Shown here piece after piece: positions 38,302 through 58,985 of a stretch of 64,000 bases of DNA. This DNA comes from Sapientia aquatica (lineage in GTDB: Bacteria; Pseudomonadota; Gammaproteobacteria; Burkholderiales; Burkholderiaceae_D): positions 620,001 to 684,000 of the forward strand of contig NZ_SMYL01000001.1 in assembly GCF_004358105.1 (NCBI RefSeq), in the 5' to 3' direction. Each line of letters begins with the position of its first letter. Within the stretch, counting starts at the first letter, position 1. The notes under the pieces were generated by a model that was not told the DNA's origin, did no database searches, and was given only the letters and a program-made list of their open reading frames with translations. The position numbers and the translations under genes were made by a program.

Positions 38302-38316
38302 ACTTACACAAAAGTT
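38302..38316 (+). repeat. Left arm-type repeat of the island
   Basis: ACTTACACAAAAGTT is identical to 52528-52542 in the same orientation. It begins 39 bases inside attL. After it, both copies continue with CAC and, some 20 bases on, ATTGATTT. Probable integrase arm sites. Confidence 0.7.
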
Positions 38317-38320
38317 TCAC

Positions 38321-38425: not shown

Positions 38426-39718
38426 ATGTCGCTAAAGAAAAAAACATTCGCAGACGAAGAAATACCGATATTCGACAGTGCTGTCATCTACAAGCGTGGC
38501 GAATATTGGCAAATGCGGATGTGGCTTGAGAAGGAAGGGAAATACGCAAGGTTCAGCCTTCGGACACGCAGTCAATCGACTGCTGAAGACAAAGCTAAAG
38601 GATATTTTCATCGGCTCATGGCCGACCAGTTAGCTGGTAAAAAGTATTTTTCAAATACCACGAAATGTGGCGTGGAAGAATACCTTAAGCAACGATACAA
38701 GGATGTTGAAGCTGGCTTGATCGTGAAAGGGCGGTACGGCACTATCAAAACGCACCTCGATCACTGGCTCAACTTTATTGGCCGTGACACCAAATTGAAA
38801 GAACTTGACCGGACTGATTGCGAAAATTACTTTTACGAACGCACCAAGACAAAAAAGAGAATAAGCGTAAGTCAAACAACCATTGCAAATGAACAAAGCA
38901 CGATCAACGCGATGATGTTATGGCTGTTCAAACGCCAAGAAACCTTAATCGAGGCTTTTGATTTCAAAAAATTGCCACGAATCGATAAGGGCGACGACAC
39001 AAAGCGTCGTGCCATGTTCACTGATGAAGAGCTTGCCAGAATTAAAGCCATTCTGGAAGAAAAAATAAAGACATATAAGCGTAAGAAAAAATTAGAGCAA
39101 AGTGACCTAACTGAAATTTTAGTTGCGTATTATTTTCTGATTTCCATTGCAACAGGATTGCGTAGAAGTGAGCAGTTGCAGCTTTGCTGGAACGATATTG
39201 ATACCGTAAGTAAAGGTGTTGCGGGGGAAGGAGAAATCGAAGCAATTGGAATGATAAAATTTACAATTCGTGCTGAAACATCAAAAGTAAGGAAGACACG
39301 CAAATTCTTGATTCAGGAGTGGGAATATACCTTTGGATTAGATTATTTAACTCATAACCTTTATAAAAAAGCCGTTGAGGAAAAGCGTGCTCCCGTAGAT
39401 TACGGAAAATGGCTGCTTTTTAGTCTCGATGGTGTAACGCCATTGACGCCAAGAACAATTGGTCTGCACTTTGACAAACTGCTAAAAGCTGCTGACATTA
39501 AAGATACCGACACCCGCGACTTGGTGCCATACAGCTTTAGGCATAATTTTATTACTAAGATGGTGAATGCCGGATTTAATCCGACGCAAGTAGGTGAGGT
39601 TTGCGGAACGAGCACCACACAGATCGAGCAAACCTATTACCATACGACGGAGCGAAAGATGATTGAAAATGCTTTACCGAATTACTACTTCAAAGATGAT
39701 TTGCTCGTGCCAAAATAA
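38426..39718 (+). CDS. Tyrosine recombinase (guaA-island integrase)
   Basis: This 430-residue phage-type integrase has an N-terminal arm-binding and SAM-like core domain (about 20-180), then the catalytic domain. Catalytic residues are visible: Arg in ATGLRRSEQLQL, Lys in the ETSKVRKTRKF segment, Arg-His in YSFRHNFIT, His/Trp position and Tyr nucleophile in IEQTYYHTT. It is oriented inward from attL, as expected for an enzyme that integrates the element at guaA and, with a partner, excises it. No dedicated excisionase was recognised. A bidirectional terminator follows. Confidence 0.95.
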   Translation: MSLKKKTFADEEIPIFDSAVIYKRGEYWQMRMWLEKEGKYARFSLRTRSQSTAEDKAKGYFHRLMADQLAGKKYFSNTTKCGVEEYLKQRYKDVEAGLIVKGRYGTIKTHLDHWLNFIGRDTKLKELDRTDCENYFYERTKTKKRISVSQTTIANEQSTINAMMLWLFKRQETLIEAFDFKKLPRIDKGDDTKRRAMFTDEELARIKAILEEKIKTYKRKKKLEQSDLTEILVAYYFLISIATGLRRSEQLQLCWNDIDTVSKGVAGEGEIEAIGMIKFTIRAETSKVRKTRKFLIQEWEYTFGLDYLTHNLYKKAVEEKRAPVDYGKWLLFSLDGVTPLTPRTIGLHFDKLLKAADIKDTDTRDLVPYSFRHNFITKMVNAGFNPTQVGEVCGTSTTQIEQTYYHTTERKMIENALPNYYFKDDLLVPK

Positions 39719-40629: not shown

Positions 40630-40828
40630 GTTGATTCCTCCACATGTATTTATCTCTGTCGGCATTTCGTAAAAGTCAGCAATTTTCCAGTTCACGCATA
40701 AATACATTGGGCTGCTTAAGCAACTGATGCAAATGGACGCAGCAGAAACCAAAATTTCAAGCGAGCCTCTCGGAACGAGGACGCCAAGAATTCGAAGCAG
40801 CAGCCCGAGACAAATTTACGGTGAGAAT

Positions 40829-41413: not shown

Positions 41414-41544
41414 TAAAACGCGGGTAGATTGAGGCTCTGCCGTGGCAGTAGGTGGGCAAGACGAAAGTCTTGTCCTTCGGTGTGACTACTTCGCAAACAA
41501 TGATTCACAAACAATGCAACATCGGTCAGCGTTATGCAATCACC

Positions 41545-41634
41545 CACAGACACAGACACAGACACAGACACAGACATACAGAAACAGACATACAGAAACA
41601 GACACAGGCACTGGCACTGGCACTGGCACTGGCA
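41545..41634. repeat. Hexanucleotide tandem repeats
   Basis: About five CACAGA units, a variant stretch (CATACAGAAACAGA twice) and about four CTGGCA units lie in 90 bases, downstream of the Rep-like gene and upstream of the 300-residue unknown gene. No credible coding region covers them. Confidence 0.9.
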
Positions 41635-42601: not shown

Positions 42602-45600
42602 CTAAACCCACTCAGCACTCAAACTTTCCGCCTGCTGCAACACGGTCTGAATCGCTTCTTCTTGCTGGTCAGGCGGATACTTATATTTCCGCAAAATCCG
42701 CTTCACCATCAACCGCAACTTGGCACGGACACTTTCACGCTGTGACCAATCGACGCTGACATTCTGGCGGAGATTTTCCGTCAGTTCGTGTGCGATCAGC
42801 TTCAGCGTTTCATCGCTTAATTCCCGAACGGCGGATTCATTGTTGGCAAGGGCGTCATAAAACCGGATTTCATCATCAGTCAGTCCAAGCGACTCATTGC
42901 GGTTTGCGGCTTCCTTGAACTTTTTCGCCATCTGAATCAGTTCTTCGATGACCTGTGCCGTTTCAATTGACCTGTTCTGATAGCGTTTAATGACATCAGC
43001 CAGCAAGTCAGAAAACTTCTTGTTCTGCACAACATTGCCGCCAAACTTGCTTTTGATTTCCCCTTCAAGCAAGCGTTCCAGTAGTTCAACAGCCAAATTG
43101 CGTTCAGGCAGGTTACGCACTTCTGCCAAAAAATCATCATCGAGCAAGCCGATGTTCGGTTTGTCCAAGCCAACCGCATCGAAAATATCCACGACCTGAT
43201 CTGACACGACAGCAGAGCCGATGATTTGCCGGATTGCTAATTCGCGTTCTTCGTCGGTCTTCTTCTTGGTGCTAATTTCACGCTTGGTCAGCAGCACTTT
43301 GACGGCTTGGAAGAATGCAACTTCTTCACGCACTGCCTTAGCTTCGTCCAGTGTGCAGCAGAGTGAAAATGCCTTGCTCATTGCCAGAGCATGGTCAGCC
43401 CATCGCTTTTTACCGTCCTTGTCAGCCAGCACAAAGTTAGCGGCACTAGCGAGCAGCTTGTGACCGCCTGTTAGGAAGTTGCTGTAATCAAAGCCGTGCA
43501 GCATGGCACGCAGCACTTCCAGCTTTTCTTCAAGAACGGAATACGCTTCGTGTGCATCGACAGTAGGGCGACCACGGCCATTGCTGGCGGTGTATTCCTT
43601 CAATGCCTGTTTAAGATCGTTGGCAATGCCGATGTAATCGACGACCAGACCGCCTTGCTTGTCCTTAAATACCCTATTCACCCGTGCAATAGCTTGCATC
43701 AGGTTGTGTCCCTTCATGGGCTTATCGACATACAACGTGTGCACACAGGGAGCATCAAAGCCGGTCAGCCACATGTCACGCACGATGACCAGTCGTAGCG
43801 GGTCAACTGGATTCTTGAATCGCTTTTCCAACTCCTTCTTGACCTGCGTGGAATAGATATGTGGCCGCAGCAATGGCTTGTCGCTGGCAGAGCCAGTCAT
43901 CACGATCTTGATTGCACCCTTGGCCGGATCGTCGTCGTGCCAGTCTGGGCGTAGCTTGGTAATTTCGTTATACAAATGGACGCAGATGTCGCGGCTCATT
44001 GCCACAACCATTGCTTTTCCGCTCTGTGCTTTGGCTCGTTCTTCAAAGTGTGCGACCAGATCAGCGGCCACTTGGCGTATGCGTGGTTCAGCACCAACGA
44101 CTTTTTCCAGTGCTGCCCATTTGCTTTTTAGCTTTGACTGTTCGTCGCCATCTTCATCTTCTGCAAGCTCATCGACTTCCGCATCCAGTTCGTCAAGCTG
44201 TGCCTCTTTCAGCCCAAGCTTGGCAAGGCGTGATTCGTAGAAGATAGCAACGGTTGCACCATCATCCTTGGCTTGCTGCATGTCGTAGACATGGATGTAG
44301 TCGCCAAATACTGCACGGGTATCGCGGTCTTCGCCGGAAACGGGTGTGCCGGTGAAAGCTACAAATGTCGCATTGGGCAGTGCATCACGCAGATGCTGGG
44401 CGTAGCCGACCTGATAGCCTTTGTCGTCGCCCTTGAACTTTGCTTCAAAGCCATATTGGGTGCGATGTGCTTCATCGGCAATCACGACAATATTGCTGCG
44501 GTCAGAAAGCACGGGGAAGCTATCTTCATCTTCACCCGGCATGAATTTTTGAATCGTAGCGAACACGATGCCGCCAGATGGTCGGTTGCCCAACTTAGCT
44601 CGCAAATCACCACGGGTTTCAGCCTGCACGGGTTGCTCACGCAGCAGGTCTTGAGCCAGTGAGAACACGCCGAACAACTGGCCGTCCAGATCATTGCGGT
44701 CTGTGATGACAACGATGGTTGGGTTTTCCATCGCGGATTCACGCATGACCCGTGCTGCGAAGCAGGTCATGGTGATGCTCTTGCCGCTGCCTTGCGTATG
44801 CCAAACGACGCCGCCTTTATGATTGCCGCCCGGTCTTGAAGCGGTCACGACTTGTTCAATAGCGGCACGGACAGCATAGAACTGGTGATAGCCCGCAATT
44901 TTCTTAATCAGGCCACCGTCATCTTCAAACAGCACGAAGAACCGCAGGTAATCCAGCAGGTATGCCGGAGCAAGCACACCACGAATCAGCGTTTCCAATT
45001 CGTTAAACTGTCCGAGCGGGTCAATAGTGACGCCATCAATCGTTCGCCACTGCATAAAGCGTTCAGCGTCACTCGACAGCGAGCCCAGCCGTGCTTCGCT
45101 GCCATCCGAAATGACCAGCACTTCGTTGTAATTGAAGACATCGGGGATCTGCTCTTTGTAGGTCTGTATCTGGTCGAATGCTTTCCAGATATCGGCGTTT
45201 TCATCTGCTGGGTTCTTCAGCTCCAGCAACACCAGCGGCAATCCGTTGACGAACAAAATGATGTCTGGGCGACGAGTGTGCTTGGGGCCTTTGAGCGTGT
45301 ATTGATTGACTGCCAGCCATTCGTTGGCAGCGACATCTATAAAATCAACGAGCCGCACAAAGTCGCCGCGTGTTTCGCCATCTTTCTGATATTGCACTGG
45401 CACGCCGTTGACCAGCAGACCGTGAAAGTGCCGATTGGCCGATAGTAAGGCGGGAATACCTAAATCCATTACCTGCTTGACTGCGTCTTCACGGGCGACA
45501 ACCGGAACAGCAGGATTCAATCGGTTGATTGCATTACGCAGACGCTCAACCAGCAGCGGTTGCAGGTAGTTGCTGCGTTCTGGCGTTTCGCCATCCGGTG

Positions 45601-45688
45601 CAATTGCATAGCCGTTGACATATTGGTAGCCAACTTCTTGCAGCCATTCTAAGGCTTCGTTTTCTAATTGTTCTTCGGTCATACTCAT
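42602..45688 (-). CDS. hsdR: Type I restriction endonuclease subunit R
   Basis: This 1028-residue protein has an N-terminal HSDR_N nuclease domain with the PD-(D/E)xK residues in RRPDIILF and LLELKNP (Asp about 142, Glu-Lys about 156-158). A superfamily 2 motor domain follows, with Walker A TQGSGKS (298-304), DEAH in [11 protein letters not shown] (405-408), SAT-like FTGTPV and the motif VI region [11 protein letters not shown] helical C-terminal domain (about 780-1028) docks to the methylase. All key residues are present, so it should cut unmodified DNA. Its ATG overlaps the hsdS stop (ATGA): the operon is hsdM-hsdS-hsdR. Confidence 0.97.
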
Positions 45689-46995
45689 GCTGCGGCCTCT
45701 TCAACAGCATCTTCAGCTTCGGTTATGCGTAGTTGACCGGAAATTAGACGAGGAAGTAGGGCGTCACGAAGGTCTGCAAGTGAATTTGCTTGGCGAGCAT
45801 TTTCAACGATCCTATCAAACAATACACTTGCCACTTCTTCAAAAGCGGTAAGGATTTCAGTGTTCGGCAATAAGATCGGGATTGGTCTAAATGCCTTCTT
45901 GCTTATTTCCATAAAGGTTGAGCCATTTGCTCTGGCCTTTATAACTTCCATGTTCGTTTGGCACCAGAGCAGCATATAGAGCGGCGACAATTTGCCGGTC
46001 GGAGGGAATGCTATATAACCCTGATTGATCGCCAATGGAACTTGGGCAATTGCGAGGTAGCCAATTGGTGCACGAGAGGAAAGTAAGAGTGTTCCTGCTG
46101 GTAGCAAACCAGAACCAATTTTTGCCAGCCCTTTGTTGGAAAGTTTTCGTTCCGTATTCAGCAATACAGGCGAATTGATGCCGGAAAGATCTTTTGGTGT
46201 GGTCCAGCAATGCTCAGCGGGTTCCCAAAAGCTTTCATCTTTTGTATCTGGTGTTGCTCCGCCGACGCAATCAACAACTTCGCCGACAGGCTTAACCGAC
46301 CAGCCCTTCGGCACCAACCCCAATTCAGATTCTTCAAAGCTATCAGGAAACAATGCCGCCGTTGCTTCATCCATGCCTTCCGGCATTTGACCTTGCTGCT
46401 TGGCACGCACCGGATCGAAACCTACGAACCATGACTTGAACAGTGCTTGGGCAATAGCTTCTAGCGTGGCGTTGGTTTCCCGGAGTAGGGCAATGCGGTC
46501 GTCGAGTGCTTTAAGAGTTGATGCTGCTCCAATCTGGTCAGCAAGCGGAGGCAATGCGACATTTACCTTCCGCAACTCGCTTTGCTTAATGCCCAGAACA
46601 GTTGTGCCGGTTGCACGTGAACGAAGCTGATCTTGCATCTCCTCAGTTTGCAGCAGATAGAGGAGGTAGGTGTTATCGAGCAAGCCAGTCTTACCGCGAA
46701 GTGTGACAACACGCTGTGCTAATGCCACCTTCTCAGTGCCCAATTGTGCAACTTCACCAAGTGGTGCCTCAACGGTCAGGACAACATCGCCCGCTTTTGG
46801 CAATCCACGACGCATCCAAGAGTCATAGTTATCGACTGCAATAAATTCGGTTGGCGTTTCAATTCGACCGCCTTTTATGATCTTTGCTGTTATCAACGGG
46901 ATACCAGATTCCGTCTTTACTGGCGTTTTACCGCGATAGTCGATTAGAGCATCAAGGCAATCTTCTAACGGGAGCACAGGAGCGTTAAAATTCAT
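45685..46995 (-). CDS. hsdS: Type I restriction-modification specificity subunit S
   Basis: This 436-residue protein has two target recognition domains (about 10-160 and 235-385), each followed by a conserved spacer helix: [25 protein letters not shown] near the middle and [30 protein letters not shown] at the end. LLPRLISG is the classic HsdS end. The two TRDs set a bipartite recognition sequence that cannot be read from the protein. It overlaps hsdM by 11 bases, with ribosome site GGGAGGA inside the hsdM end, and overlaps hsdR by 4. No second hsdS or partial TRD was seen nearby. Confidence 0.95.
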
Positions 46996-48535
46996 AGCCG
47001 AGTCCTCCCAGTTTCTTGCGAATCAGTGCATCCAGTTCGGCTCCCTTTGCCATTTGCTCGCCAAGCTTTTCAGTGAGCTTCTGCATCTTTTCAGCAAAGG
47101 CTTCGTCATCGTCTTCGACTTCTTCAGCACCTACATATCGCCCTGGGGTGAGCACATGGCCGTGCTCTGCAATTTCTGCTAGCGGCACACTGCGGCAATA
47201 ACCTGCCACATCTGCGTAAGTTTCCGAACCTTCGCCACGCCATGATGCAACAGTGGCCGCAATACGGCCGATAACTTCATCGGTGAATTCACACTGCACA
47301 CGACTAATCATGCTGCCAAGCTTGCGAGCGTCAATAAACAACACTTCACTCTTACGGAATGTCTTTTGCTTGGCAAGGAACCATAAGCAAGCCGGAATTT
47401 GCGTGTTGAAGAACAACTGACCGGGGAGTGCGATCATTACTTCGACCACATCAGCGTCAACCATTGCTCTGCGAATATCGCCTTCGCTGTTTTGGCTGGA
47501 ACTCATGCTGCCGTTTGCCAGCACGATACCAGCACGGCCAGTCGGCTTGAGGTGATACAGCATGTGCTGCAACCACGCATAGTTGGCATTGCCTTGCGGC
47601 GGCGTGCCATACACCCAGCGTGGATCACCTTCTAAGCTGCCATGCCACCAGTCGCTGATATTGAACGGCGGATTTGCCAGCACAAAATCGGCTCGCAAAT
47701 CGGGATGCTGGTTGCGGGTAAAAGTATCTTCGGGTTCGCGGCCAAGGTTGTAGTCGATACCACGAATCGCCAGATTCATTGCCGCTAACCGCCATGTAGT
47801 GGGGTTCGCTTCCTGACCATAAATGCTGACATCGCCAAGTTTGCCACCGTGGGCTTCAATGAAACGCTCAGACTGCACGAACATACCGCCAGAACCGCAG
47901 CAGGGGTCATACACCTTGCCATGGTGCGGAGCCAGCACAGCAACCAGCGTTTTAACTATGCTGGCAGGCGTGTAGAACTGTCCGCCACGCTTGCCTTCTG
48001 CACTGGCGAACATGCCAAGGAAGTATTCATAAACTTGGCCGAGCACATCACGGGCGGCACTGGCATCCACGCCAAAACCGATCTGCGATACCAAATCGAC
48101 CAACTCGCCAAGCTTGCCATCCGGTAGCTGGGCACGGGCATAGCGTTTATCCAGAATACCCTTGAGCTTGGGATTCTCAACTTCGATGACTGACAGTGCG
48201 TCATCAATGCGTTTGCCAATGTCGGACTGCTTGGCATTGGCACGAATGCTTTCCCATCGTGCCGTTTCTGGCACCCAGAACACATTGACTTCGCGGTAAT
48301 AGTCGCGGTCTTCCAGTTCTTCTGCCAACAATGCAGCGTCAGCATCATGCAAGAAGTAGTCATCGTTTTTGTCAGCAAACCGGCGAATCAACTCTTCGCG
48401 GCGTGACTGGAATGTATCGGATATGTATTTGACGAAGATTAGGCCGAGCACCAAATGTTTGTATTCAGCAGCGTCCATGTTCGCCCTGAGTTTGTCTGCT
48501 GTTGCCCAGAGCGTTTTCTTGATGTCTTCAATCAT
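46985..48535 (-). CDS. hsdM: Type I restriction-modification DNA methyltransferase subunit M
   Basis: This 516-residue N6-adenine methyltransferase has the HsdM_N helical domain (about 1-150, IKKTLWATADKLRANMDAAEYKHL), then the catalytic domain. SAM-binding motif I is in YDPCCGSGGMFV (about 209-220) and the catalytic NPPF is at 288-291 in FVLANPPFNISDWW. Length and order are usual. It is first in the hsdMSR operon, with ribosome site AGGGAAG before ATG 48535, so methylation is made before restriction. Confidence 0.97.
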   Translation of the reverse strand: MIEDIKKTLWATADKLRANMDAAEYKHLVLGLIFVKYISDTFQSRREELIRRFADKNDDYFLHDADAALLAEELEDRDYYREVNVFWVPETARWESIRANAKQSDIGKRIDDALSVIEVENPKLKGILDKRYARAQLPDGKLGELVDLVSQIGFGVDASAARDVLGQVYEYFLGMFASAEGKRGGQFYTPASIVKTLVAVLAPHHGKVYDPCCGSGGMFVQSERFIEAHGGKLGDVSIYGQEANPTTWRLAAMNLAIRGIDYNLGREPEDTFTRNQHPDLRADFVLANPPFNISDWWHGSLEGDPRWVYGTPPQGNANYAWLQHMLYHLKPTGRAGIVLANGSMSSSQNSEGDIRRAMVDADVVEVMIALPGQLFFNTQIPACLWFLAKQKTFRKSEVLFIDARKLGSMISRVQCEFTDEVIGRIAATVASWRGEGSETYADVAGYCRSVPLAEIAEHGHVLTPGRYVGAEEVEDDDEAFAEKMQKLTEKLGEQMAKGAELDALIRKKLGGLGYEF

Positions 48536-49185: not shown

Positions 49186-49755
49186 TCAAGCGACGGTGTT
49201 GCAGTAGCGGTGGACTGTGGCTCGATCAATACCAAACTGCCGAGCCAATTCGCTGCGGTTTTCGTTGGCGTTATATCGCTGCCGCAATTCTGCTTGCTGT
49301 TCAGCGGAAAGCTTTGGTTTGCGGCCTTGATACTTCCCTTCAGCTCGTGCCCGTGTAATACCTTCGATTTGCCGTTCCTTGCGGATACCGTGCTCAAACT
49401 CAGCGAAAGCGGCAAACATGGTCAGTGCCAGCTTTCCGGCTGGCGTGTCAGTGTCAAAGCCTTGTTTCAAGATGACCAAGCGTATCCCACGCTCGGACAG
49501 CAGTGCAATTTGCGTCAGCACATCAACAGTGCTGCGGCCAAGCCTGTCTAATGCATAGACAACAAGCGTGTCTCCTTCCCGTACATACGCCAAACATGCT
49601 GACCAGCCCGTGCGGTGGTTTGCGTTGGTTGTGCCGCTGACTGCTTCGTCGGCAAATTCCTTGTCAACTTGCCAGCCGCCAGCGATGATTGCCTGACGCT
49701 GGTTCTGCACAGTTTGCTCGCTTGTCGAGACACGCAGATAGGAAATGATGCTCAT
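49186..49755 (-). CDS. Serine recombinase (resolvase/invertase family)
   Basis: This 189-residue protein has a resolvase catalytic domain (1-135) with the nucleophile Ser in YLRVSTSEQ (about 10), Arg residues in YALDRLGRST, and the E-helix FAEFEHGIRKERQIEGITRA. A C-terminal helix-turn-helix follows (about 150-187, ENRSELARQFGIDRATVHRYC). Length fits the Tn3 resolvase / Hin invertase / Tn552-type group. GGGAGGCC precedes the ATG. Dyad-related GTTGCA motifs overlap its promoter region, as expected of a res site. It may resolve multimers of the excised element or be a remnant of a nested transposon. Confidence 0.93.
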   Translation of the reverse strand: MSIISYLRVSTSEQTVQNQRQAIIAGGWQVDKEFADEAVSGTTNANHRTGWSACLAYVREGDTLVVYALDRLGRSTVDVLTQIALLSERGIRLVILKQGFDTDTPAGKLALTMFAAFAEFEHGIRKERQIEGITRARAEGKYQGRKPKLSAEQQAELRQRYNANENRSELARQFGIDRATVHRYCNTVA

Positions 49756-50062: not shown

Positions 50063-51421
50063 ATGGCTACATACAAAGTCCAAAATACGCTAGGCCGGGG
50101 GGCATTCGGTAGGGTTGATCGAGCAACCGATGAGGCAGGGGTGGACTTTGCACTGAAATTTTTTGATCCTAGTGCGGTAGTCCTTACTGCAATCGCACAA
50201 GGGCATGTATCGTCTGATGAACTTAAGCGTCGTTTTTTTAGTGAAGCAACCTATCAAGCTCGCATTAACCATCCGAATGTAGTCAAGGTCTTTGGTAGCA
50301 ACCTGTCGGCGACACCACCATTTTTTATAATGGAACTTGCTGAAGCATCGCTGGCGAATGACATGGATAGCGATCACACCTTAAGCGGAAGTCCTCAGCA
50401 AGCTTTGTTCGACATACTAGCCGGATTGGAAGGCATTCATGGTCAAGGTATATATCACCGAGACTTAAAGCCGCAAAATATTCTTCGAATTAGAAATGAT
50501 GACGGGTCATATCGATACGCCCTTTCTGATTTCGGCCTAATAAAAGTCACGACAAGTGACGCAACTACTCTTACTGCGACCGGTGCCCAAGGCGGCACCG
50601 AGCGTTATGCTGCACCAGAATTAATTTCAAATTTTAAGAGAGCAACAGCACGCTCAGATATTTTCTCATTTGGGGTCATTTTATTTGATATTTTTGCTGG
50701 CCCGATTAACAGAATTCCTTACACAGAAGTACATTTTCCGGGTGCAGTGGGACTTGTTGCATCGAAGTGTACAAAGACATTGGCAGCTCGCCGTTATGGC
50801 TCAATTGCTGAAGTTCGAGCTGCTTTGTACGAAGCGTTAAGAGGTGAGACACCGCAGTTTGGCTCGCATCGCGAGGAGCAAATTGTCGAATTGCTGCGTT
50901 CAGAGAGTACCTTAACCGCCCAAGATTGGGATCATGTATTTCTCTTGCTTGAAGAGTTGTCGCCAACATCTCGATCGTTTGATCTATTACTTCGAGTTTT
51001 TTCTAAGCAACATTTCGAAGCTCTTGCAACAGAAGCCCCTGATTTGTTAATGGCATTTGCTGGCTACTATACGGACTATGTTGACGAAGGGCAGGGGAAA
51101 TTCGATTTCGATTATTGTGATGTGATTGCCGATAAGCTGACATGGCTCTTTGAGCTTGGTGATATTGCAGTAAAGGCTCGTATCCTGTTGACTATGCTTC
51201 GATTGGGAACTTCCCATAATCGCTGGTTTGTCGAAAGACGATTCATGCAACTTGCTGGCACCACATTGGATGCCGCTGTTGCCGAACGAATGATTTTAGA
51301 TGTCGAAATTGCAGGCATTGATTTGAATGCGAATATAGATCATCTAGAGCGGTCTATAGGCGTGTCTCGCGGCCAGCTCTCTCCAGCCTTGCAAAGATTG
51401 TGGGTGTCTGAAAGTGAGTGA
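50063..51421 (+). CDS. Ser/Thr protein kinase with unknown C-terminal domain (island)
   Basis: This 452-residue protein has a complete Hanks-type kinase domain (about 4-265): glycine loop LGRGAFGRV, Lys in FALKFF, HRDLKPQN, DFG in LSDFGLI, activation segment TERYAAPELIS, and RSDIFSFGVILF. Residues about 270-452 form a helical domain I do not recognise, with LTAQDWDHVFLLLEEL, a tract EGQGKFDFDYCDVIADKLTWLF, and LERSIGVSRGQLSPALQRLW at the end. There is no membrane helix. The PP2C gene begins inside its last codons (8-base overlap), so kinase and phosphatase are made together. It differs from the core PP2C-kinase fusion in order and architecture. Confidence 0.92.
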   Translation: MATYKVQNTLGRGAFGRVDRATDEAGVDFALKFFDPSAVVLTAIAQGHVSSDELKRRFFSEATYQARINHPNVVKVFGSNLSATPPFFIMELAEASLANDMDSDHTLSGSPQQALFDILAGLEGIHGQGIYHRDLKPQNILRIRNDDGSYRYALSDFGLIKVTTSDATTLTATGAQGGTERYAAPELISNFKRATARSDIFSFGVILFDIFAGPINRIPYTEVHFPGAVGLVASKCTKTLAARRYGSIAEVRAALYEALRGETPQFGSHREEQIVELLRSESTLTAQDWDHVFLLLEELSPTSRSFDLLLRVFSKQHFEALATEAPDLLMAFAGYYTDYVDEGQGKFDFDYCDVIADKLTWLFELGDIAVKARILLTMLRLGTSHNRWFVERRFMQLAGTTLDAAVAERMILDVEIAGIDLNANIDHLERSIGVSRGQLSPALQRLWVSESE

Positions 51422-52127
51422 ATTTCAGATTGCATCATTTTCGATTGCTTCAAGCGAAAAGCAGAACTTCGACGCTATTGCAAACGCGATACTCCCTCGT
51501 AATCGACTGCTGCTTGTGATAGCCGATGGCGTTGGCTCATCCCTTCATGGTGGGGAGGCAGCAAGGCTCGCTGTTGCAACATGTGTAGAGATGGCCTCAT
51601 CAGCGGAAATTTCTGATGTTTTTGTCGAGGCGAATAATCGGATAAATGCGGCAGCAAATTCAGACTATAAACAATGGAGCACGACTTTAACAACCTGCAT
51701 CCTTGATAGTGACAAGGCTTATGTTGGTCATGTTGGGGACACGCGAATTTATCATTTGCGAGGTGCTGGTATTCAGACTCGCACGAAAGACCAAACAGAA
51801 GCCGAAAAGTTGATCGATGAAGGCGTGCTTTCTCGTGAGCGTGCCCGTCGCTATCCGAGAAAAAATGTGCTTCTGTCTGCCTTGAACGGATCGGGCGACT
51901 ATGAGTTGCAGCAATCGTCATTCGAAGTAATGCGTGGCGACAGGATTCTTCTTCTTTCGGATGGCTTGTATAGGCAGGTTGGCAAGCACGAAATTGTTCA
52001 GTTGTCATCCGATAATAACGATGTATCCGCTTTTATTGATGCATTAAAAGCGATGCTTTTTGATCGAGGAATCATTGATGATTCCTCTGTAATATGTGCT
52101 GAGTTAAACATGAAAGATGGGCAATAG
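51414..52127 (+). CDS. PP2C-type protein phosphatase paired with the island kinase
   Basis: The start is GTG 51414, overlapping the kinase stop (GTGAGTGA). The 237-residue product is a bare PP2C domain: VIADGVGSSLHGGEAA (metal Asp), WSTTLTTCIL, VGHVGDTRIYHLR, LLLSDGLYRQV and IDDSSVICAEL. It should reverse phosphorylation by the kinase encoded just upstream. Translational coupling suggests a balanced switch. TerY-P type stress loci also contain a kinase and a PP2C, but with a vWA protein that is absent here. Confidence 0.92.
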   Translation: MSEFQIASFSIASSEKQNFDAIANAILPRNRLLLVIADGVGSSLHGGEAARLAVATCVEMASSAEISDVFVEANNRINAAANSDYKQWSTTLTTCILDSDKAYVGHVGDTRIYHLRGAGIQTRTKDQTEAEKLIDEGVLSRERARRYPRKNVLLSALNGSGDYELQQSSFEVMRGDRILLLSDGLYRQVGKHEIVQLSSDNNDVSAFIDALKAMLFDRGIIDDSSVICAELNMKDGQ

Positions 52128-52527: not shown

Positions 52528-52542
52528 ACTTACACAAAAGTT
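52528..52542 (+). repeat. Right arm-type repeat of the island
   Basis: ACTTACACAAAAGTT, identical to 38302-38316 and in the same orientation, 52 bases inside attR. Confidence 0.7.
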
Positions 52543-52593
52543 ACACACTAAATGCAAGCTATTGATTTTAATGGATAAATTATGTATGTATTT

Positions 52594-52608
52594 ATTGAGT
52601 GGGAATGA
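52594..52608 (+). repeat. attR core of the guaA island
   Basis: ATTGAGTGGGAATGA matches the last 15 bases of guaA with one change (G to A before TGA). It marks the right end of the island. Confidence 0.88.
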
Positions 52609-52650
52609 TTTCATGTGCTAATCACATGACTTCGCCGAGTTTAAAACGAT

Positions 52651-52689
52651 GCCATTGATGATCTCTCGATTATCAATGGCTTTTTTATT
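52651..52689 (+). terminator. Probable original guaA terminator, displaced by the island
   Basis: GCCATTGAT (52651-52659) and ATCAATGGC (52672-52680) form a perfect 9-bp stem followed by TTTTTTATT. It lies 43 bases beyond attR, where guaA would end in the empty chromosome, and no gene reads into it from the left now. Confidence 0.85.
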
Positions 52690-52774
52690 GGAAGGATGCC
52701 GTGGTGCTCATGCAATTGTAGCCAGCGCTTCAACTAGAAGCATGATCTTTGCTGGTTTAACTTCAAGCGCTAGA

Positions 52775-53725
52775 TTAGCTATGCATGGGCTTCTCCCAAG
52801 CTCCTTTGGTATTGACACCAGCTTGATCCGCCAATGCTTCAAGCGCACGAGTTTCATCAAACGATAATTTAAGCGCTATGGCTGCTGCCGCATCCTCGAC
52901 ATGCTTGAGTTTGGTCACGCCAATAATAGGTAGCGTACCTTTGGCGATGGCCCACGCAATAGCGATTTGTGCTACTGAGGCGTTTTTAGTTGCTCCGATT
53001 TCTCGCATTCTATCGGTCAACTTTTGAAGCTGCGGTAAAGCTTCGTTGTAGGTCGCGGCTCGGCCACTGCCTTCCGGGAGCGGGTGATTGGCATCGTATT
53101 TGCCCGATAGCGCACCTTGTTCAAGCACTAAATAGGCAAAGAACGTGATGTTATTTTGCTTGCAGTAGTCCAGAATGCCGGCATGCTCGGAGGAGCGATA
53201 CAACAGACTGTAATGGTTTTGTATTGCCGAGATTTCAAACCCAGCTTGCTTTAGCGTGTTGTTGACTAGTTGGATTTCTGCTAAATTGTGATTGGATACT
53301 CCCACGCGCTTGATCGTGCCACTTTGCAGCAGCGGCACAAGGTAGTGCGTCCATTCGTTGATCTGGGTCGGGTTATGAATCCAGTACAGGTCGATGATTT
53401 CGGTACCTAGTCGTTTGCAACTTTGTTCCAATAAATCGGCAACTGGATTATCGGCGTTCTTGCTGGCCAATTGAGGCGTGAATTTAGTGGACAATATTAA
53501 TTCATCGCGTCGGCTTGATTTGATGAATTCGCCCAAAATTGTCTCGGACGCTCCCATGCCATAGACCGCGGCAGTGTCCCACAGGACTAATCCTTTTTTT
53601 GTGGCTAGGTCGAAAATTGGACGCAGGATGCCTGCATCGAGGTAGTTGCCAAATACTTGATCGCCACCAGCAAAGCCGGTGCCCCATGACCATGTTCCGA
53701 GTGCGATTTTGGGTAAGGTTTTCAT
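52775..53725 (-). CDS. Aldo/keto reductase
   Basis: The start is ATG 53725 (MKTLPKIALGTWSWG), with AAGGAGC 9 bases upstream; the frame extends further but without a ribosome site. The 316-residue TIM-barrel protein shows the AKR tetrad: Asp and Tyr in LWDTAAVYGMG, Lys in LSTKFTP, His in YWIHNPTQ. NADPH-site residues are in GTLPIIGVTKLKHVEDAA. It probably reduces aldehydes or quinone-derived carbonyls. It is last in a minus-strand group with a hydrolase, a YciI-like protein and a flavin reductase, opposite a LysR regulator. Confidence 0.92.
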   Translation of the reverse strand: MKTLPKIALGTWSWGTGFAGGDQVFGNYLDAGILRPIFDLATKKGLVLWDTAAVYGMGASETILGEFIKSSRRDELILSTKFTPQLASKNADNPVADLLEQSCKRLGTEIIDLYWIHNPTQINEWTHYLVPLLQSGTIKRVGVSNHNLAEIQLVNNTLKQAGFEISAIQNHYSLLYRSSEHAGILDYCKQNNITFFAYLVLEQGALSGKYDANHPLPEGSGRAATYNEALPQLQKLTDRMREIGATKNASVAQIAIAWAIAKGTLPIIGVTKLKHVEDAAAAIALKLSFDETRALEALADQAGVNTKGAWEKPMHS

Positions 53726-53757
53726 GATTGCTCCTTCGATATTTCGCTTGCCACTGT

Positions 53758-54885
53758 TCATATCAGATGTGTTTTGAAAAATTTTTCGATGTGATCGAAT
53801 GGAATTTTTTCTACTTGATCGTATAGGTCAACGTGGTCTGCCTCTGGCACGATGAATAATTCTTTGGATTGTCCAGCCAAGCGATAAATATCTTCCGAAT
53901 AGTAGCGCGAATGGGCATTTTCTCCAGCAATTAACAGAATTGGTCGCGGTGCAATCATCGCGATTTGGGACATCATGGGAAACGCGAAAAAGGACATCGA
54001 CGTTGTGGCAGTCCAGGCTGTAGTGGAGTTGATCGAACGTGGGTGAAAACCGCGCGTCGTCTTGTAGTACATGAAGAATGCAGCCATTACTGGATTGGCG
54101 TTGATGGGCAAGGGATCGGGAAGTAGTTTGTCGCTTTTGATTAATTGACCCTGCTCATCGAACGGGATTTCGTGCAGGCCTGTCGCAAAGTTGCCTTGTG
54201 CCGCATCGTTCCAGCGTTGCTGACTTAGGTAGTCAATGATCTGATGTCGTTGATCTAATGTGTAACTGTCGTGATAGCCGCGGCTGATGCTGCGCGACAT
54301 GTCGTACATCGATGCGGTGGCGACGGCTTTGATGCGGGAATCGCTGGTCGCTGCTGTTAGCGCCATACCCGAGAGGCCGCAGATCGCCATTGCGCCTATT
54401 CGGTTGCGGTCTACGTGGGGCAATAAGCCGATGTAATCCACCGCTGCGCTGAAGTCTTCTGTATGGATATCGGGCGAGGCGACATTGCGCACATCGCCCC
54501 CACTTTCTCCAGTGAAGGATGAGTCGAATGCCAAAGTAATGAATCCGCGTTCAGCCAGAGTTTGCGCGTATAGTCCAGACGATTGCTCTTTTACCGCGCC
54601 AAATGGCCCGCCTAGCACTAACGCTGCCGATGATTGGTGCTCTTGTTGCAGCGACTTTGGTTGATACAAATCACCCACCAAGGTAATACCGTAGCGATTT
54701 TTAAACTGCACTTTGCTGTGGGTTACGTTGTCGTTTTTTGGGAATACTTTGTCCCAAGTTTGCGCGTCTTTCATAGCGTTTCCTTTGATTGGTGGTGTGT
54801 GCGGTGCCGCATGGACATCAGCAAGCTCTATAACGCTCGCTATGCCGGTAGCAAATGTGGCGTGTAAAAAAGTTCGGCGGTCCAT
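53758..54885 (-). CDS. Alpha/beta hydrolase (dienelactone hydrolase-like), Tat-type signal
   Basis: This 375-residue protein begins MDRRTFLHATFATGIASV, a twin-arginine-like signal. The body is an alpha/beta hydrolase: strand-turn ALVLGGPFGAVKEQSSG, nucleophile Ser in AICGLSGMALTAA (about residue 170), Asp region RPILLIAGENAHSRY, and His in PEADHVDLYDQ. The nucleophile elbow is GLSGM rather than a strict GxSxG. Similar proteins are annotated as dienelactone or X-Pro-peptidase-like hydrolases. It lies 32 bases upstream of the reductase gene and is likely co-transcribed. Confidence 0.85.
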   Translation of the reverse strand: MDRRTFLHATFATGIASVIELADVHAAPHTPPIKGNAMKDAQTWDKVFPKNDNVTHSKVQFKNRYGITLVGDLYQPKSLQQEHQSSAALVLGGPFGAVKEQSSGLYAQTLAERGFITLAFDSSFTGESGGDVRNVASPDIHTEDFSAAVDYIGLLPHVDRNRIGAMAICGLSGMALTAATSDSRIKAVATASMYDMSRSISRGYHDSYTLDQRHQIIDYLSQQRWNDAAQGNFATGLHEIPFDEQGQLIKSDKLLPDPLPINANPVMAAFFMYYKTTRGFHPRSINSTTAWTATTSMSFFAFPMMSQIAMIAPRPILLIAGENAHSRYYSEDIYRLAGQSKELFIVPEADHVDLYDQVEKIPFDHIEKFFKTHLI

Positions 54886-54941
54886 AGTTTTCTTCCGTCG
54901 CTTTTCGTCGAATCAAATTAGGCATTGAATCGGACTAGCAC

Positions 54942-55235
54942 TTAAGGTGTTGCGAATAACATTTCCCAATTCAGCATGGGGCCCAATGGAATGATTTCCC
55001 AGCCAATTAAATCGACTTTGGCTAACGGAAATTCCATTAATTTGGCCCGTGCCGCATCGACCGAATCGGCTTCGGCAATGATGGCAACGCCGACGCGATC
55101 TTGGCGGAAATATATGTCGCGGATGAAGCCAGATTTATACAGCTCCCATCCGTGACGTACTTCGTTGTGTAAGTGCGGGCTGTACTGCTCCAACGTGGCG
55201 TTTGGATTGGGTATGTCGAGGCAAAGCAATTTCAT
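54942..55235 (-). CDS. YciI / muconolactone isomerase-like small protein
   Basis: This 97-residue protein of dimeric alpha-beta barrel type reads MKLLCLDIPNPNATLEQYSPHL, IRDIYFRQDRVGVAIIAEADSVDAARAKLMEFPL, IGWEIIPLGPM. The His and Asp residues expected of YciI/muconolactone isomerase-like proteins are not clearly conserved, so enzymatic activity is uncertain. It is in the LysR-divergent group between the flavin reductase and the hydrolase. Confidence 0.75.
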   Translation of the reverse strand: MKLLCLDIPNPNATLEQYSPHLHNEVRHGWELYKSGFIRDIYFRQDRVGVAIIAEADSVDAARAKLMEFPLAKVDLIGWEIIPLGPMLNWEMLFATP

Positions 55236-55291
55236 GGTGATTAGTCCTTGTCGTTAAAAAAATACTCGAAAAATGATGCGTCGAAGGCGGA

Positions 55292-55840
55292 TTAACTGCC
55301 TGTGTTTTGTACTGTCGGAGCACTCAGTAAAGTGTGCAAGGCTGCTTTAAAGCCGGCCAATTTTTCGGCACCAGCGCCCATCGCCTCGAAAAAGGCAACT
55401 GGTTTGGCATACGTCATACCGACGTAAAGGGCACTGGCCTTCATCGGCGTTAGGACTTCATCGATATTGCTATGAATTAACCCATCGGCGGAATAGGTGT
55501 GGGCAGTAGCACCGGTTGAGACCACCACTTGCATTTGCTTACCTTGCAAAGCGTTGCCGTCGCGGCCAAAGGCCCAACCGTAGCCCCATACTTGGTTGAG
55601 GTAGGCTTTGAGCATTGGTGTCAGGTTGAACCAATGAATAGGGAATAAATACACCACGCGCCCTACGCCGTCATGTGCACGCTGCTCGGCGGCGACGTTG
55701 AAAGCTTGAGTATCATGGCCATACAGGGTTTCCAAATTGCGCACTTGGACATTAGGTAGTGACTTGGCAGTCTCTTGCAACGCCTTAATAACAAGGGATT
55801 GTTCAGGGTAAGGGTGGGAGACAATGACAAGGGTTTTCAT
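55292..55840 (-). CDS. Flavodoxin-fold NAD(P)H quinone oxidoreductase
   Basis: This 182-residue protein matches the MdaB/KefF/NQO family: MKTLVIVSHPYPEQSL (FMN/FAD phosphate site), VYLFPIHWFNLTPMLKAYLNQVWGYGWAFG, and QVVVSTGATAHTYS. It likely reduces quinones with two electrons to limit redox cycling. It is first in the minus-strand group and divergent from the LysR gene, the usual layout for inducible quinone/electrophile response. Confidence 0.9.
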   Translation of the reverse strand: MKTLVIVSHPYPEQSLVIKALQETAKSLPNVQVRNLETLYGHDTQAFNVAAEQRAHDGVGRVVYLFPIHWFNLTPMLKAYLNQVWGYGWAFGRDGNALQGKQMQVVVSTGATAHTYSADGLIHSNIDEVLTPMKASALYVGMTYAKPVAFFEAMGAGAEKLAGFKAALHTLLSAPTVQNTGS

Positions 55841-56012
55841 GTTGTTTCCTTTTCGGTGACGAGTTTAAGCGGCTTGGATAAATCCATGTAAGCCTGCGAT
55901 GAAATGATTATGGGCTGCTTCATTGTTGAAGAAAATGAGCTATCGGGTTTAAAATCTCACAACTTTAAGTTGTTAATCATGTTCTTGTCGTTAAGCCAAA
56001 GGAGCTTGTTAA

Positions 56013-56966
56013 ATGGACTCTTCGCAGCGTGTGCGCGCCATACTTTCGTTTGTTCAGGCCGCCGATGCGGGCAGTTTTGCAGCCGGGGCCCGCGCGTTAG
56101 GAATTTCGTCCGCAGCCGTCGGGAAAAATATCGCGGGACTAGAGAAATCGCTGGGTGTTCGTCTAATGAACCGCACCACACGTAGTTTGAAATTGACTGA
56201 CGAGGGCGAAGCTTTTTTGCGTCAAGCGCGGGTCGCTCTAGAGGCGCTTGATTTGGCGGTAGATGCGGTAATTTCGCAGCGCGCAGCACCAACTGGCTCG
56301 GTGCGCATTTCCACCAGCGCAGGCTTCGGCAGAGAGCAGCTCGCTCCTTTGTTACCGAACTTATTGATTAAGTATCCTGGATTGGCGGTGGAAGTGGATT
56401 TCGATGACCGCGTAATTGACCTAATCCATGATGGTTATGACATCGCCTTACGCGGCGGACGCGTTGCCGACTCGTCACTGATATCGCGCACAGTCTGTCA
56501 ATTCCGCCTGGTGTTGGTCGCATCTCCATCGTATTTACAGACTTTTGGTATTCCTCGCAAACCAGATGAATTGATGAAGCACCGGTTGTTGACCCGACGT
56601 TTTCTAGGTGGCAGGATATCGCCTTGGAATTTCTTGGCCGATGACGCAAGCCTTACAACGCTCAATACAGATTCCGCCGTCATGACTATGTCATCACCGG
56701 AAACTCTGACCCAAATGGCGGTCGCTGGTGCAGGGATTGCGGAGGTGGGCGTGCATCACGCTTGGAAATACTTGCGTACCGGCGAATTGAAGCTGCTTTT
56801 ATTGAGTTCCCATCACCCCGGCAGCTTTGAAATGACGCTTCAATATCCACATCGTGCTTTGGTAGCGCCGCGTGTGCGGGTGACGATTGATTATCTGCTG
56901 GAAGCCTTTGCCAACATGCACGAACTGCACGTGCCACTATCTGAGTTGAGTCCTTATCAGGCGTAA
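56013..56966 (+). CDS. LysR family transcriptional regulator
   Basis: This 317-residue protein has an N-terminal winged HTH (about 8-66, FVQAADAGSFAAGARALGISSAAVGKNIAGLEKSLGVRLMNRTTR) and a C-terminal periplasmic-binding-like effector domain (about 90-300). CAAAGGAGC precedes the ATG. It is divergent from the quinone reductase / hydrolase / aldo-keto reductase group, with 172 bases between, and probably activates it in response to an electrophile or aromatic compound. Confidence 0.95.
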   Translation: MDSSQRVRAILSFVQAADAGSFAAGARALGISSAAVGKNIAGLEKSLGVRLMNRTTRSLKLTDEGEAFLRQARVALEALDLAVDAVISQRAAPTGSVRISTSAGFGREQLAPLLPNLLIKYPGLAVEVDFDDRVIDLIHDGYDIALRGGRVADSSLISRTVCQFRLVLVASPSYLQTFGIPRKPDELMKHRLLTRRFLGGRISPWNFLADDASLTTLNTDSAVMTMSSPETLTQMAVAGAGIAEVGVHHAWKYLRTGELKLLLLSSHHPGSFEMTLQYPHRALVAPRVRVTIDYLLEAFANMHELHVPLSELSPYQA

Positions 56967-57101
56967 TCGAGCCCGTATTTATCACTTCGTCTGCCTTGGT
57001 TAATAAAAAAGCGGCAACTTTACCCCTCTATTCAGGCGCTGGTCGTAATCGATTGCTTTTTATAATGAAAATTGCGCTATTGGGCACAGGGTTCGGTTGC
57101 C
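56967..57101. other. Space after the LysR gene
   Basis: The 317 bases from the LysR stop to the radical SAM start hold only the small candidate peptide frame at 57102-57215 and an AT-rich probable promoter zone (57055-57075, TATAATG). No terminator hairpin was seen after the LysR gene. Confidence 0.4.
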
Positions 57102-57215
57102 ATGTTGCGCCGTCTTGAATTAGCCGGGCTTGCGCGCCTCAGCTCGCCGTTAATTCGTGTGAATTTGATTGGGTTTTACTGGATGTTGAATGGATGCATC
57201 ACTTGTTTGACTTGA
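57102..57215 (+). CDS. Candidate small peptide (37 residues) upstream of a radical SAM gene
   Basis: ATG 57102 opens a 37-codon frame, basic at the start (MLRRLELAGLARLSS) and ending WMLNGCITCLT with two Cys. It lies 68 bases before the radical SAM start on the same strand. A TATAAT-like box is at about 57061. The ribosome site is weak. It could be a precursor or leader peptide, or chance. Confidence 0.2.
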   Translation: MLRRLELAGLARLSSPLIRVNLIGFYWMLNGCITCLT

Positions 57216-57283
57216 ATTAAGTCAAATCATGTCTACGCTTAAGATTTTTCCGTGGCATTAACAGGCAATCACCGAGGAAATAT

Positions 57284-58435
57284 ATGTCGATACTTGGAAA
57301 GCTGAACTTGGCAGAGACGCTGATGCGCAACGGCTGGGTATCGCATTCAATTAATGTTCTTAACGAATTGGATGTTACGCAGTTATCTGAGCTTGAAATA
57401 GAACGTCGCTTATCTATTTTTAAATTTTCCGAAACTGCCTCGGCCAATCTCTCTACGACGGATTACCCGATTTCCATCTTTGGTGATCGAATACTAAGTT
57501 CCTTACATTTTCGAGAGTTGCCAGATCGCGAGCTGAAAAAGCAAGCATTTAAACAAGGCGTTGATTACATTGATATAGAAACCTCGTCGCAATGCAATCG
57601 CAAATGTCACTACTGCACTAACTCAACGCTAGACCGCATTAGCGACAATAAATTTTTGGATGTTTCTGTCCTAGAAAATATCCTCAAAGAGTTAGCCGAA
57701 ATCGATTACGACAAAGAACTGCATTTTGTGGGTTATAACGAGCCGCTAATGCACCGCGAATCGATTGTGAATGTCGTTCGGATCGCATCGAAAATTCTAC
57801 CGAATGCAAAAATAGTGATATTCACCAATGGCGACTATTTAGATTACGACTACTTAAATGAATTAATCGATGCTGGCGTTGATAGGCTAAACATTTCCGT
57901 GCACTTGGCTCCTGGTGCCGCGTATAACAGCGAAGAAATCATCGATAGAATTTTTAAACTATCCACCAAGCTGCGGGTGACGCCAGTGCTCAAGCAGTTT
58001 GTGAAGAAGCGCGAAATCTATTTTTCGCTACTCGGCTCAGCGATCGAATTGGAGATATTTCAACGCGATTATTCCAATGTGGGACACGATAGAGGTGGGC
58101 TGTTAGATGTGCAAATTAAGAAAACCAGAACAGCCGCCTGTACCAGTCCACTGAAACAATTCATTGTGGGATACACCGGCACGATTTTGCCTTGTTGTGC
58201 CTTAGTCGGCGACGATCCGCGCCATAACACATGTATCGTTGGCGATGCGTTCAAAGAAAGCATTTTCGATATTTATGCGGGGAAAAAATATATTGAATGG
58301 CGCAAAGGCTTGGCTAATTTAAAACCAAAAGAGGGCGCCTGCAAATACTGTAATGCTGAATGCGACACGCCCGATAATACCGATCCTAATCGTTACCAAA
58401 TCATTGATTTTGCCTTATCTAAAATGGGTGCATAA
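57284..58435 (+). CDS. Radical SAM / SPASM domain protein of unknown function
   Basis: This 383-residue protein has the radical SAM cluster motif CNRKCHYC (about 104-111), GYNEPL as the SAM-binding GGE-like turn, and a TIM-barrel core. A C-terminal SPASM-type region has Cys at CTSPLKQF, LPCCALVG, NTCIVGD and the closing CKYCNAEC. SPASM enzymes bind extra iron-sulphur clusters and modify peptides, sugars or cofactors. A leading domain of about 95 residues is unrecognised. GAGGAA before ATG 57284 is a good ribosome site. No biosynthetic partner genes are adjacent. Confidence 0.88.
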   Translation: MSILGKLNLAETLMRNGWVSHSINVLNELDVTQLSELEIERRLSIFKFSETASANLSTTDYPISIFGDRILSSLHFRELPDRELKKQAFKQGVDYIDIETSSQCNRKCHYCTNSTLDRISDNKFLDVSVLENILKELAEIDYDKELHFVGYNEPLMHRESIVNVVRIASKILPNAKIVIFTNGDYLDYDYLNELIDAGVDRLNISVHLAPGAAYNSEEIIDRIFKLSTKLRVTPVLKQFVKKREIYFSLLGSAIELEIFQRDYSNVGHDRGGLLDVQIKKTRTAACTSPLKQFIVGYTGTILPCCALVGDDPRHNTCIVGDAFKESIFDIYAGKKYIEWRKGLANLKPKEGACKYCNAECDTPDNTDPNRYQIIDFALSKMGA

Positions 58436-58795
58436 ATTGGTTTTCAATCAGAAATCGGCTGAGTTAACGCTCGGCGTTTGTGGCTGATTTGATGGCCTTC
58501 CCATTAAAACTAGGTAAATTTTAGTTATTTGTTCATCCTCGCGATTCTTGATTGAACCTCGCCCCTCGTTTCCGTCTCGTCCTGCGCTCATTGCGCAATA
58601 AAACTCGTGTTGAGCTATTGGGTAGCAAGCACAGCTTGCCTTAGATACTCGCCATTTTTGTTATTTTTTTCAAAATTGTATTTAACAAAAAATCGACACC
58701 AAATGAAACTAGCGCCAAAACTTGGCTAGCGATTTGCGCTGCGTTTCCATGAGTTGTGAGCGATTTCGACCTGATAACTGGGCAACTAGGTGCCG
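58436..58795. other. Gene-free stretch after the radical SAM gene
   Basis: Together with 58838-58949 this is about 570 bases without a gene before queE. An 84-codon minus-strand frame (58709-58963) has poor support and overlaps the dispersed element. No clear terminator was seen after the radical SAM gene. Confidence 0.5.
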
Positions 58796-58837
58796 TTTAG
58801 CGACGAAAAAGCGCAAAGTCGGATAAAATATTGGGTT
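58796..58837 (+). repeat. Dispersed intergenic element, copy 2 (promoter-like)
   Basis: TTTAGCGAC, 19 bases ending CAAAGTCGGA, TAAAATA, 2 bases, GGGTT; 34/42 identical to 52394-52435. It may serve as the promoter for queE (leader about 175 bases) or for a small RNA ending at the hairpin 58950-58979. Confidence 0.6.
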
Positions 58838-58949
58838 ATGCGTTACCGATAAAAAGGAGTGTTTTTCCTTTTGGTACTGATTGTAAAAATATTTTTTAAT
58901 GGTGCGGATTCGTTGTGGTTGACTACGCAGATTGGAATTAGAAGCTTCG

Positions 58950-58985
58950 TTGGCAGAAAGCATGTTTGTTTTCTGCCAAAATTTT
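58950..58985 (+). terminator. Perfect hairpin in the queE leader
   Basis: TTGGCAGAAA (58950-58959) and TTTCTGCCAA (58970-58979) form a perfect 10-bp stem with a 10-base loop, followed by AATTTTA, 31 bases before the queE start. It may be a terminator/attenuator or the end of a short leader RNA. Confidence 0.55.

Follow-up and report, generated by a model that had tools for sequence, protein, structure and literature searches.

What does a protein kinase gene that runs into a phosphatase gene do at the end of a genomic island in Sapientia aquatica? The pair lies in the window, the 64-kb stretch of DNA analysed here, to whose positions all coordinates refer; residues are numbered as in the window kinase or PP2C. 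The first gene (50063..51421, + strand), identified from its ORF, Pfam and a structure model, begins with ATG and encodes a Hanks-type Ser/Thr protein kinase of 452 aa with a predicted all-helical C-terminal tail. The Pfam Pkinase match covers residues 4-213 (E 1.4e-31), and the catalytic residues K32, E61, HRD 132-134, N139, DFG 156-158 and APE 184-186 are intact; K32, E61, D134, N139 and D156 are conserved in each of the 49 kinase alignment rows with coverage at these positions. Sequence and family alignment place the HRDLKPQN catalytic loop of this RD-type kinase at residues 132-139 (50456..50479, +), while the alignment and the model place the activation segment, which carries an LTxTG motif, at residues 160-186, from DFG+2 to APE (50540..50620, +). 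Position 171 is Thr in 50 of 51 aligned kinases and Ser in the other one, and we take this Thr of the LTxTG loop to be the usual autophosphorylation site of RD-type kinases. The AlphaFold2 model of the full kinase had a mean pLDDT of 91.4, with activation loop residues 165-177 the sole run of three or more residues below 50. Neither PASTA nor any further extracellular domain was detected by Pfam in the window kinase.

The second gene (51414..52127, +; ORF, Pfam and alignment) has a GTG start and encodes a PP2C-type phosphatase of 237 aa, matched by PP2C_2 over residues 13-190 (E 7e-15). Its residues D20, D38-G39, G108-D109, D176, D183-G184 and D222 are intact and do not vary among the 25 aligned pairs. 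An earlier, sequence-only reading of this DNA had described full sets of catalytic motifs in both proteins and an overlap of 8 bases between the genes; the alignments bear out the former, and the ORFs place the 8-nt overlap at 51414-51421. Such an overlap suits matched synthesis of kinase and phosphatase. Scans for promoter and terminator signals at the pair gave none above chance. Distant bacteria show this gene order and tight spacing as well, indicating that the pairing is more than chance.

We then considered the C-terminal part of the kinase, a tail of 194 residues (about 259-452; 50837..51418, +), by means of Pfam, PDB, AlphaFold2, Foldseek and VIA-align. AlphaFold2, run with 51 sequences, modelled it as 11 helices in a repeat-like arrangement (mean pLDDT 94.5), and the tail is thus confidently predicted to be an all-helical, solenoid-like domain. 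The family alignment revealed a signature, GTSHNRWFV, at residues 382-390 (51206..51232, +), and all 51 alignment rows share D353, G382, S384, H385, N386, R387 and V390 without exception. At all loci whose tail ORF is unbroken, a kinase domain precedes the tail. Pfam returned no family for the tail even at E up to 10, and a sequence search of the PDB brought up nothing convincing (best E 0.17). By structure, the best PDB match in Foldseek was a designed protein (E 0.049) and the best in VIA-align a designed repeat, at a Z of 10.4, which is in a range common for helical repeats; both lists consisted of generic helical repeats with designed ones at the top. Comparison of the fold with viral structures gave no match at E 0.001 or better. 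The tail is therefore without a sequence match or a confident fold match, although absence from these fold lists is no proof of a new fold. This agrees with the earlier description of a C-terminal domain that could not be placed, and neither sequence nor structure comparison tied it to a known domain with an unrelated role, the outcome which that description had named as speaking against it. The tail may serve in sensing, as a scaffold or in substrate reading.

The element that carries the pair could be delimited. A repeat search identified a 19-bp direct repeat, with one mismatch between its copies, as putative attL at 38302..38320 (+), 38 nt past the guaA stop, and as putative attR at 52528..52546 (+), 400 nt past the PP2C stop. 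These are the only two copies in the window, where 0.04 would be expected, and the only two at up to 2 mismatches in the 4.43-Mb genome. A tyrosine integrase gene (38426..39718, +; PF00589, E 1.7e-13) starts 105 nt past the left repeat. Further in lie the type I restriction-modification genes hsdM, hsdS and hsdR (42602..48535, -; Pfam and PADLOC) and, as the divergent neighbour of the pair, a serine recombinase gene of the resolvase family (49186..49755, -; Pfam). A queE match lies within about 11 nt past guaA in one relative (L019) and about 1.1 kb beyond it in another (L015), while queE starts at 58966 in the window. Taken together, the end repeats, the integrase and the guaA-queE spacing in relatives indicate a guaA island of 14.2 kb that contains hsdR, hsdS and hsdM and has the pair as its last cargo, much as the sequence-only reading had proposed in calling the pair island cargo beside a type I restriction system. 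The extra DNA between the island end and queE (52547-58966; an aldo/keto reductase gene and others) is outside this element. Within the island, the gene at 40727-41413 showed a weak REP_ORF2-G2P match (E 0.0093) and is perhaps a replication initiator of the element. At 41534-41634, ahead of an ORF at 41688, ACAGAC-like and CACTGG-like units form a short tandem tract.

How widely is such a kinase distributed? Searches with the window kinase found it in 1 of 147 relatives (E up to 1e-30) and in 1 of 398 genomes of the phylum (E up to 1e-80), and both times this was the window's own genome. We reject housekeeping signalling on these counts, and the homologues were not found mainly in core housekeeping contexts, the finding that the earlier reading had set against its own proposal. 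A scan with the tail alignment recovered 50 loci in genomes of 84,980 species and 6 in viral contigs, 56 loci in all; the 50 are a lower bound, since the scan requires an exact match to one degenerate peptide. The hosts include Pelomonas, Vibrio, a Campylobacteraceae bacterium, Flavobacterium and Amycolatopsis, as well as Clostridia, Acidobacteria, Gemmatimonadetes and Synergistales. We define the family by a kinase domain followed by a tail with [FW]xxCD-like and GxSHNR[WF]xV signatures, captured end to end in a profile (A5) built from 51 kinases. The window kinase, itself a row of A5, scored 523.7 bits over positions 1-438 of 442. Among 31 locus-bearing genomes, 30 had full-length matches of 357-578 bits (two copies in one of them) and the remaining one (L042) a broken copy of 188 bits, while other kinases in the same genomes scored at most 158 bits; A5's own rows are among these genomes' matches. 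The profile separates the tailed-kinase family sharply from other kinases. At L053, a kinase split by a stop adjoins an intact PP2C. A viral scan with the whole window kinase gave no matches. Among the 50,697 records of a phage collection, none matched the tail of the E. coli KV7 relative described below, and none contained 80% of the window kinase.

We then asked how constant the phosphatase partner is. A PP2C gene lies directly 3' of the kinase on the same strand in 33 of the 56 loci (L031 included) and is adjacent but convergent in one (L046). In four loci, all from Bacteroidetes and forming one related clade, a PPP-family phosphatase, which differs from PP2C in fold and is not homologous to it, takes the place of PP2C and lies directly 5' of the kinase (L057, 6691-7350; L058, 6644-7366; L060, 6683-7342; L061, 6686-7345). 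These upstream proteins are calcineurin-like, form one family and match Metallophos in Pfam with E 2.6e-14 to 7.2e-20. Neither PP2C nor PPP was found beside the kinase in the other 18 of 56 loci. The PP2C aligned in one frame at L040, L043 and L084, and in two reading frames at L034 and L055. A second PP2C-like gene was seen 2.8 kb from the pair's own PP2C at L048 (positions 8651 and 11480), and weak DUF4145 matches were noted at the phosphatase-less locus L070 (6515-7318, E 0.00045) and the PPP-linked locus L057 (8758-9411, E 0.0093).

We placed partner type on a FastTree tree of 56 kinases, comprising the 51 rows of A5 and 5 plasmid kinases, from which L033, L042, L053, L065, L071 and L076 had been left out as duplicate or broken. 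Only 2 changes of partner were required; none of 500 label shuffles gave as few, the shuffle minimum being 15. Within the PP2C clade, 34 of 34 kinases have an adjacent PP2C. We read this pattern as suggesting that PP2C was taken up once, with no loss since in this sample, and that the PPP phosphatase would represent an independent uptake; the direction of change is deduced from a tree rooted by midpoint. Kinase and PP2C tree distances correlated (r 0.74; none of 2000 permutations reached it, best 0.40) over 25 pairs, in which KV7 (L106) and L083 are the same phage and from which descent shared through the carrier is not removed. PP2Cs failing a motif, position or length filter and broken kinases were excluded. 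These results show that kinase and PP2C have been inherited together.

Relatives of the pair were found on plasmids and prophages. In a tblastn search of plasmids, Acinetobacter relatives covered 98% of the length at 33-35% identity, and kinase, PP2C and BrnTA occur together on three plasmids of this genus (8.6, 10.2 and 16 kb). BrnTA directly adjoins the pair on the 8.6-kb and 10.2-kb plasmids, with three hypothetical genes in between on the 16-kb one. A kinase with the tail motif is also encoded on three actinobacterial plasmids, where no PP2C is annotated beside it. As a separate observation, an Acinetobacter nosocomialis plasmid (L024, 4980-6305) encodes, next to BrnTA and without an annotated PP2C, a kinase whose C-terminal part is different, and A. 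pittii plasmids encode a kinase similar to it.

Among 5426 E. coli genomes, the pair of a P2-like viral contig (L084) matched one, strain KV7, and a second pair query (L035) matched none. In KV7 a P2-family prophage holds the pair, flanked by its replication endonuclease and portal genes; further on, the prophage has a GmrSD-type gene and a HEPN gene. Ten proteins of this prophage were matched at 100% by an IMG/VR contig (L083), while L084 represents a second P2-like contig with a portal protein 77% identical, and its pair lies between a gpA fragment and the portal gene. At L030, a gene matching Phage_GPA in Pfam adjoins the pair. As set out in passages of Rousset et al. (2022; PMC9122126), the gpA-gpQ interval of P2 is a hotspot that holds old, tin and tested defence systems; the interval occupied by the pair in KV7 is this published hotspot (PMC9122126).

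A survey of neighbouring genes, proposed with the sequence-only reading, was carried out with PADLOC for 20 of the 56 loci, taking at each the nearest ORFs of 180 aa or more, six at most, and excluding kinase and PP2C. The PP2C of L046 and the PPP proteins of L057 and L060 were dropped from the cases, the second PP2C-like protein near L048 being kept, and two long proteins, one each of L087 and L098, were dropped from the controls. Neighbour proteins matched 99 PADLOC families as against 50 for proteins from matched control regions (115 and 118 proteins, respectively), a count of families and not of proteins. We regard this as suggestive of a modest enrichment of defence genes, owing in part to generic methylase, helicase and kinase models. 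Pfam counts over the same cases and controls revealed no dominant defence family. Single neighbours were mixed, with a relaxase and NikA at L043, a KAP NTPase at L046 and an integrase at L048; the remaining neighbours scanned by hand were ordinary or unmatched.

We compared the pair with known kinase-based systems. The best PADLOC match was PD-T4-6, a single-gene system (134 bits; kinase residues 3-213 against model positions 10-208 of 292); this match ends with the kinase domain and leaves the tail unmatched, and a generic kinase may match likewise. Stk2, a Ser/Thr kinase defence of staphylococci that is also discussed in PMC11341870, was matched partially (69.8 bits; residues 41-260 against 150-356 of 500) and differs in being a single gene with no known PP2C partner. 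MADS MAD6 and BREX PglW are kinases within DNA-methylase systems, and the window kinase fell below the NCBIfam cut-offs for both (102 against 460 bits and 45.6 against 990 bits, respectively). It likewise scored below that for PknB_PASTA_kin (106 against 450 bits), and the PP2C below that for Stp1_PP2C_phos, the Stp1/IreP model (128 against 230 bits). The TerY-P triad also unites kinase and PP2C in one locus, but vWA/TerY is absent from the scanned island proteins (E up to 0.1; 0.01). Pairs in the lambdoid phages phiES15 and Flotzy and in E. coli prophages resemble the window pair as phage cargo in which the kinase gene precedes PP2C, with a 4-nt overlap, but their kinases are tail-less and 255-260 aa long. 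In lambdoid phages and prophages, tail-less pairs with a 4-nt overlap recur either next to the lysis genes or within the early region (L026-L029, L107-L109), and tail-less kinase-PP2C pairs also occur on Vibrio plasmids.

The closest precedent is KKP (PfkA-PfkB-PfpC) of Pf6 and other prophages. Passages of its report (PMC11341870) describe a PP2C/kinase module that acts both as a toxin-antitoxin and in phage defence; inhibition of the PP2C by a T4 replication protein sets it off, and it controls Pf production through phosphorylation of MvaU. As there described, KKP shares with the window pair a Hanks kinase opposed by a neighbouring PP2C, carriage on a mobile element and a kinase C-terminal domain, which in KKP is needed for the effect. 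In KKP, however, the phosphatase gene comes first and two kinases follow, with FHA and CSD tails, whereas in the window the kinase precedes PP2C, its tail is predicted to be all-helical and the island has no second kinase, the other kinase matches of this genome lying outside it. FHA and cold-shock domains are absent from the window kinase in Pfam and from its tail at E up to 10. On the description of KKP in these passages, the pair is not a member of it. The relevant passages on DefensePredictor (PMC13092281) include a HipA-type kinase and metallophosphatases and no such pair, and those of PMC7159879 mention actinobacterial kinase-PP2C-vWA neighbours. Among the matches listed, the open-access literature holds no two-gene form with this tail, KKP being the only close match, which agrees with the earlier statement that the pair fits no familiar system.

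Based on these comparisons, we consider the chances about even that the pair is a mobile two-gene phosphorylation switch that acts in the manner of a toxin-antitoxin or abortive-infection system, probably against phages. The kinase would autophosphorylate at Thr171 and phosphorylate host proteins, while the phosphatase, made in step through the gene overlap, would keep kinase and substrates dephosphorylated. A phage or rival element might upset this balance by acting directly on the phosphatase or by attaching to the tail close to D353 and SHNRW, and unrestrained phosphorylation would then arrest growth and halt the invader, as is the case for KKP with its two kinases. Of the functions suggested earlier, the antiphage switch gains real but indirect support from the rarity of the kinase in the phylum (1/398), the small plasmids, the P2 hotspot and the KKP precedent. 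Control of restriction gains none, and the evidence speaks neither for nor against control of excision. The 18 of 56 loci without an adjacent phosphatase indicate that the kinase is tolerated alone in some lineages and weaken a strict toxin-antitoxin reading. More tentatively, the loci may represent a new family of immune switches, in which a solenoid-tailed Hanks kinase that senses the invader twice took on an unrelated phosphatase antitoxin, PP2C downstream and PPP upstream, and spread on plasmids, islands and P2-like prophages. If so, phosphorylation-based phage defence would extend past KKP, Stk2 and PD-T4-6 to a form in which one kinase and one phosphatase suffice. Its sensing part would be a helical domain that is without known relatives and bears a fixed signature (D353, GxSHNR), and two unrelated folds would have provided the phosphatase. 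A two-gene cassette of roughly 2 kb in E. coli K-12 would then make it directly testable how infection is read by the balance of kinase and phosphatase.

Other readings of the same evidence were weighed against this switch. The carriers are an integrative element, prophages and plasmids, and the pair could regulate the element itself (its excision, lysogeny or transfer) by phosphorylating a DNA-binding protein of the host or of the element, as passages on KKP describe for the Pf prophage and MvaU (PMC11341870). We think this rather unlikely: by their annotations the guaA island, the P2-like prophages and the 8.6-16-kb Acinetobacter plasmids share little else, and their different integration and replication genes make one shared target within the element unlikely, although a host target would be possible. 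An addiction module, in which loss of the element leaves the kinase unopposed and kills segregants without any phage defence, would fit the very small plasmids, the position next to BrnTA on the 8.6-kb and 10.2-kb ones and the constancy of PP2C in its clade (34/34). It would require, however, that the phosphatase decay faster than the kinase, and both the anti-phage cargo described for the P2 gpA-gpQ site in passages of PMC9122126 and the 18 relatives with no phosphatase found alongside argue against it, so that we hold it to be improbable. We are as sceptical, if not slightly more so, of cargo for lysogenic conversion or host signalling that alters physiology (stress, biofilm or cell wall) and is not defence. 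Tail-less kinase-PP2C pairs are indeed cargo near lambdoid prophage lysis genes, and the PP2C has some likeness to Stp1/IreP, if under the cut-off; yet Pfam shows neither PASTA nor another extracellular domain in the window kinase, and the family is rare in the phylum and its relatives lie on different kinds of element.

Control of the island's type I restriction-modification system, which the sequence-only reading had also offered, is unlikely and the least probable of these readings. The hsd genes end 1.5 kb upstream of the pair, and the model names of MADS point to a kinase coupled with a type I-like methylase; but the hsd genes and the pair are divergently transcribed, with the resolvase gene between them. 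In a tblastn search of the stretches neighbouring the 56 loci, the window's HsdR, HsdS and HsdM all went unmatched at 53 of them. HsdM alone was matched at L079, and all three near the pair just at L032 and L033, where the pair, on one contig, again has R, M and S genes nearby, together with an integrase-like match. We therefore reject restriction control as the main role, with the proviso that distant type I systems may escape tblastn. On this MAG contig, the pair-plus-restriction copies at L032 and L033 score equally and are separated by about 34 kb, consistent with either a duplication or a misassembly.
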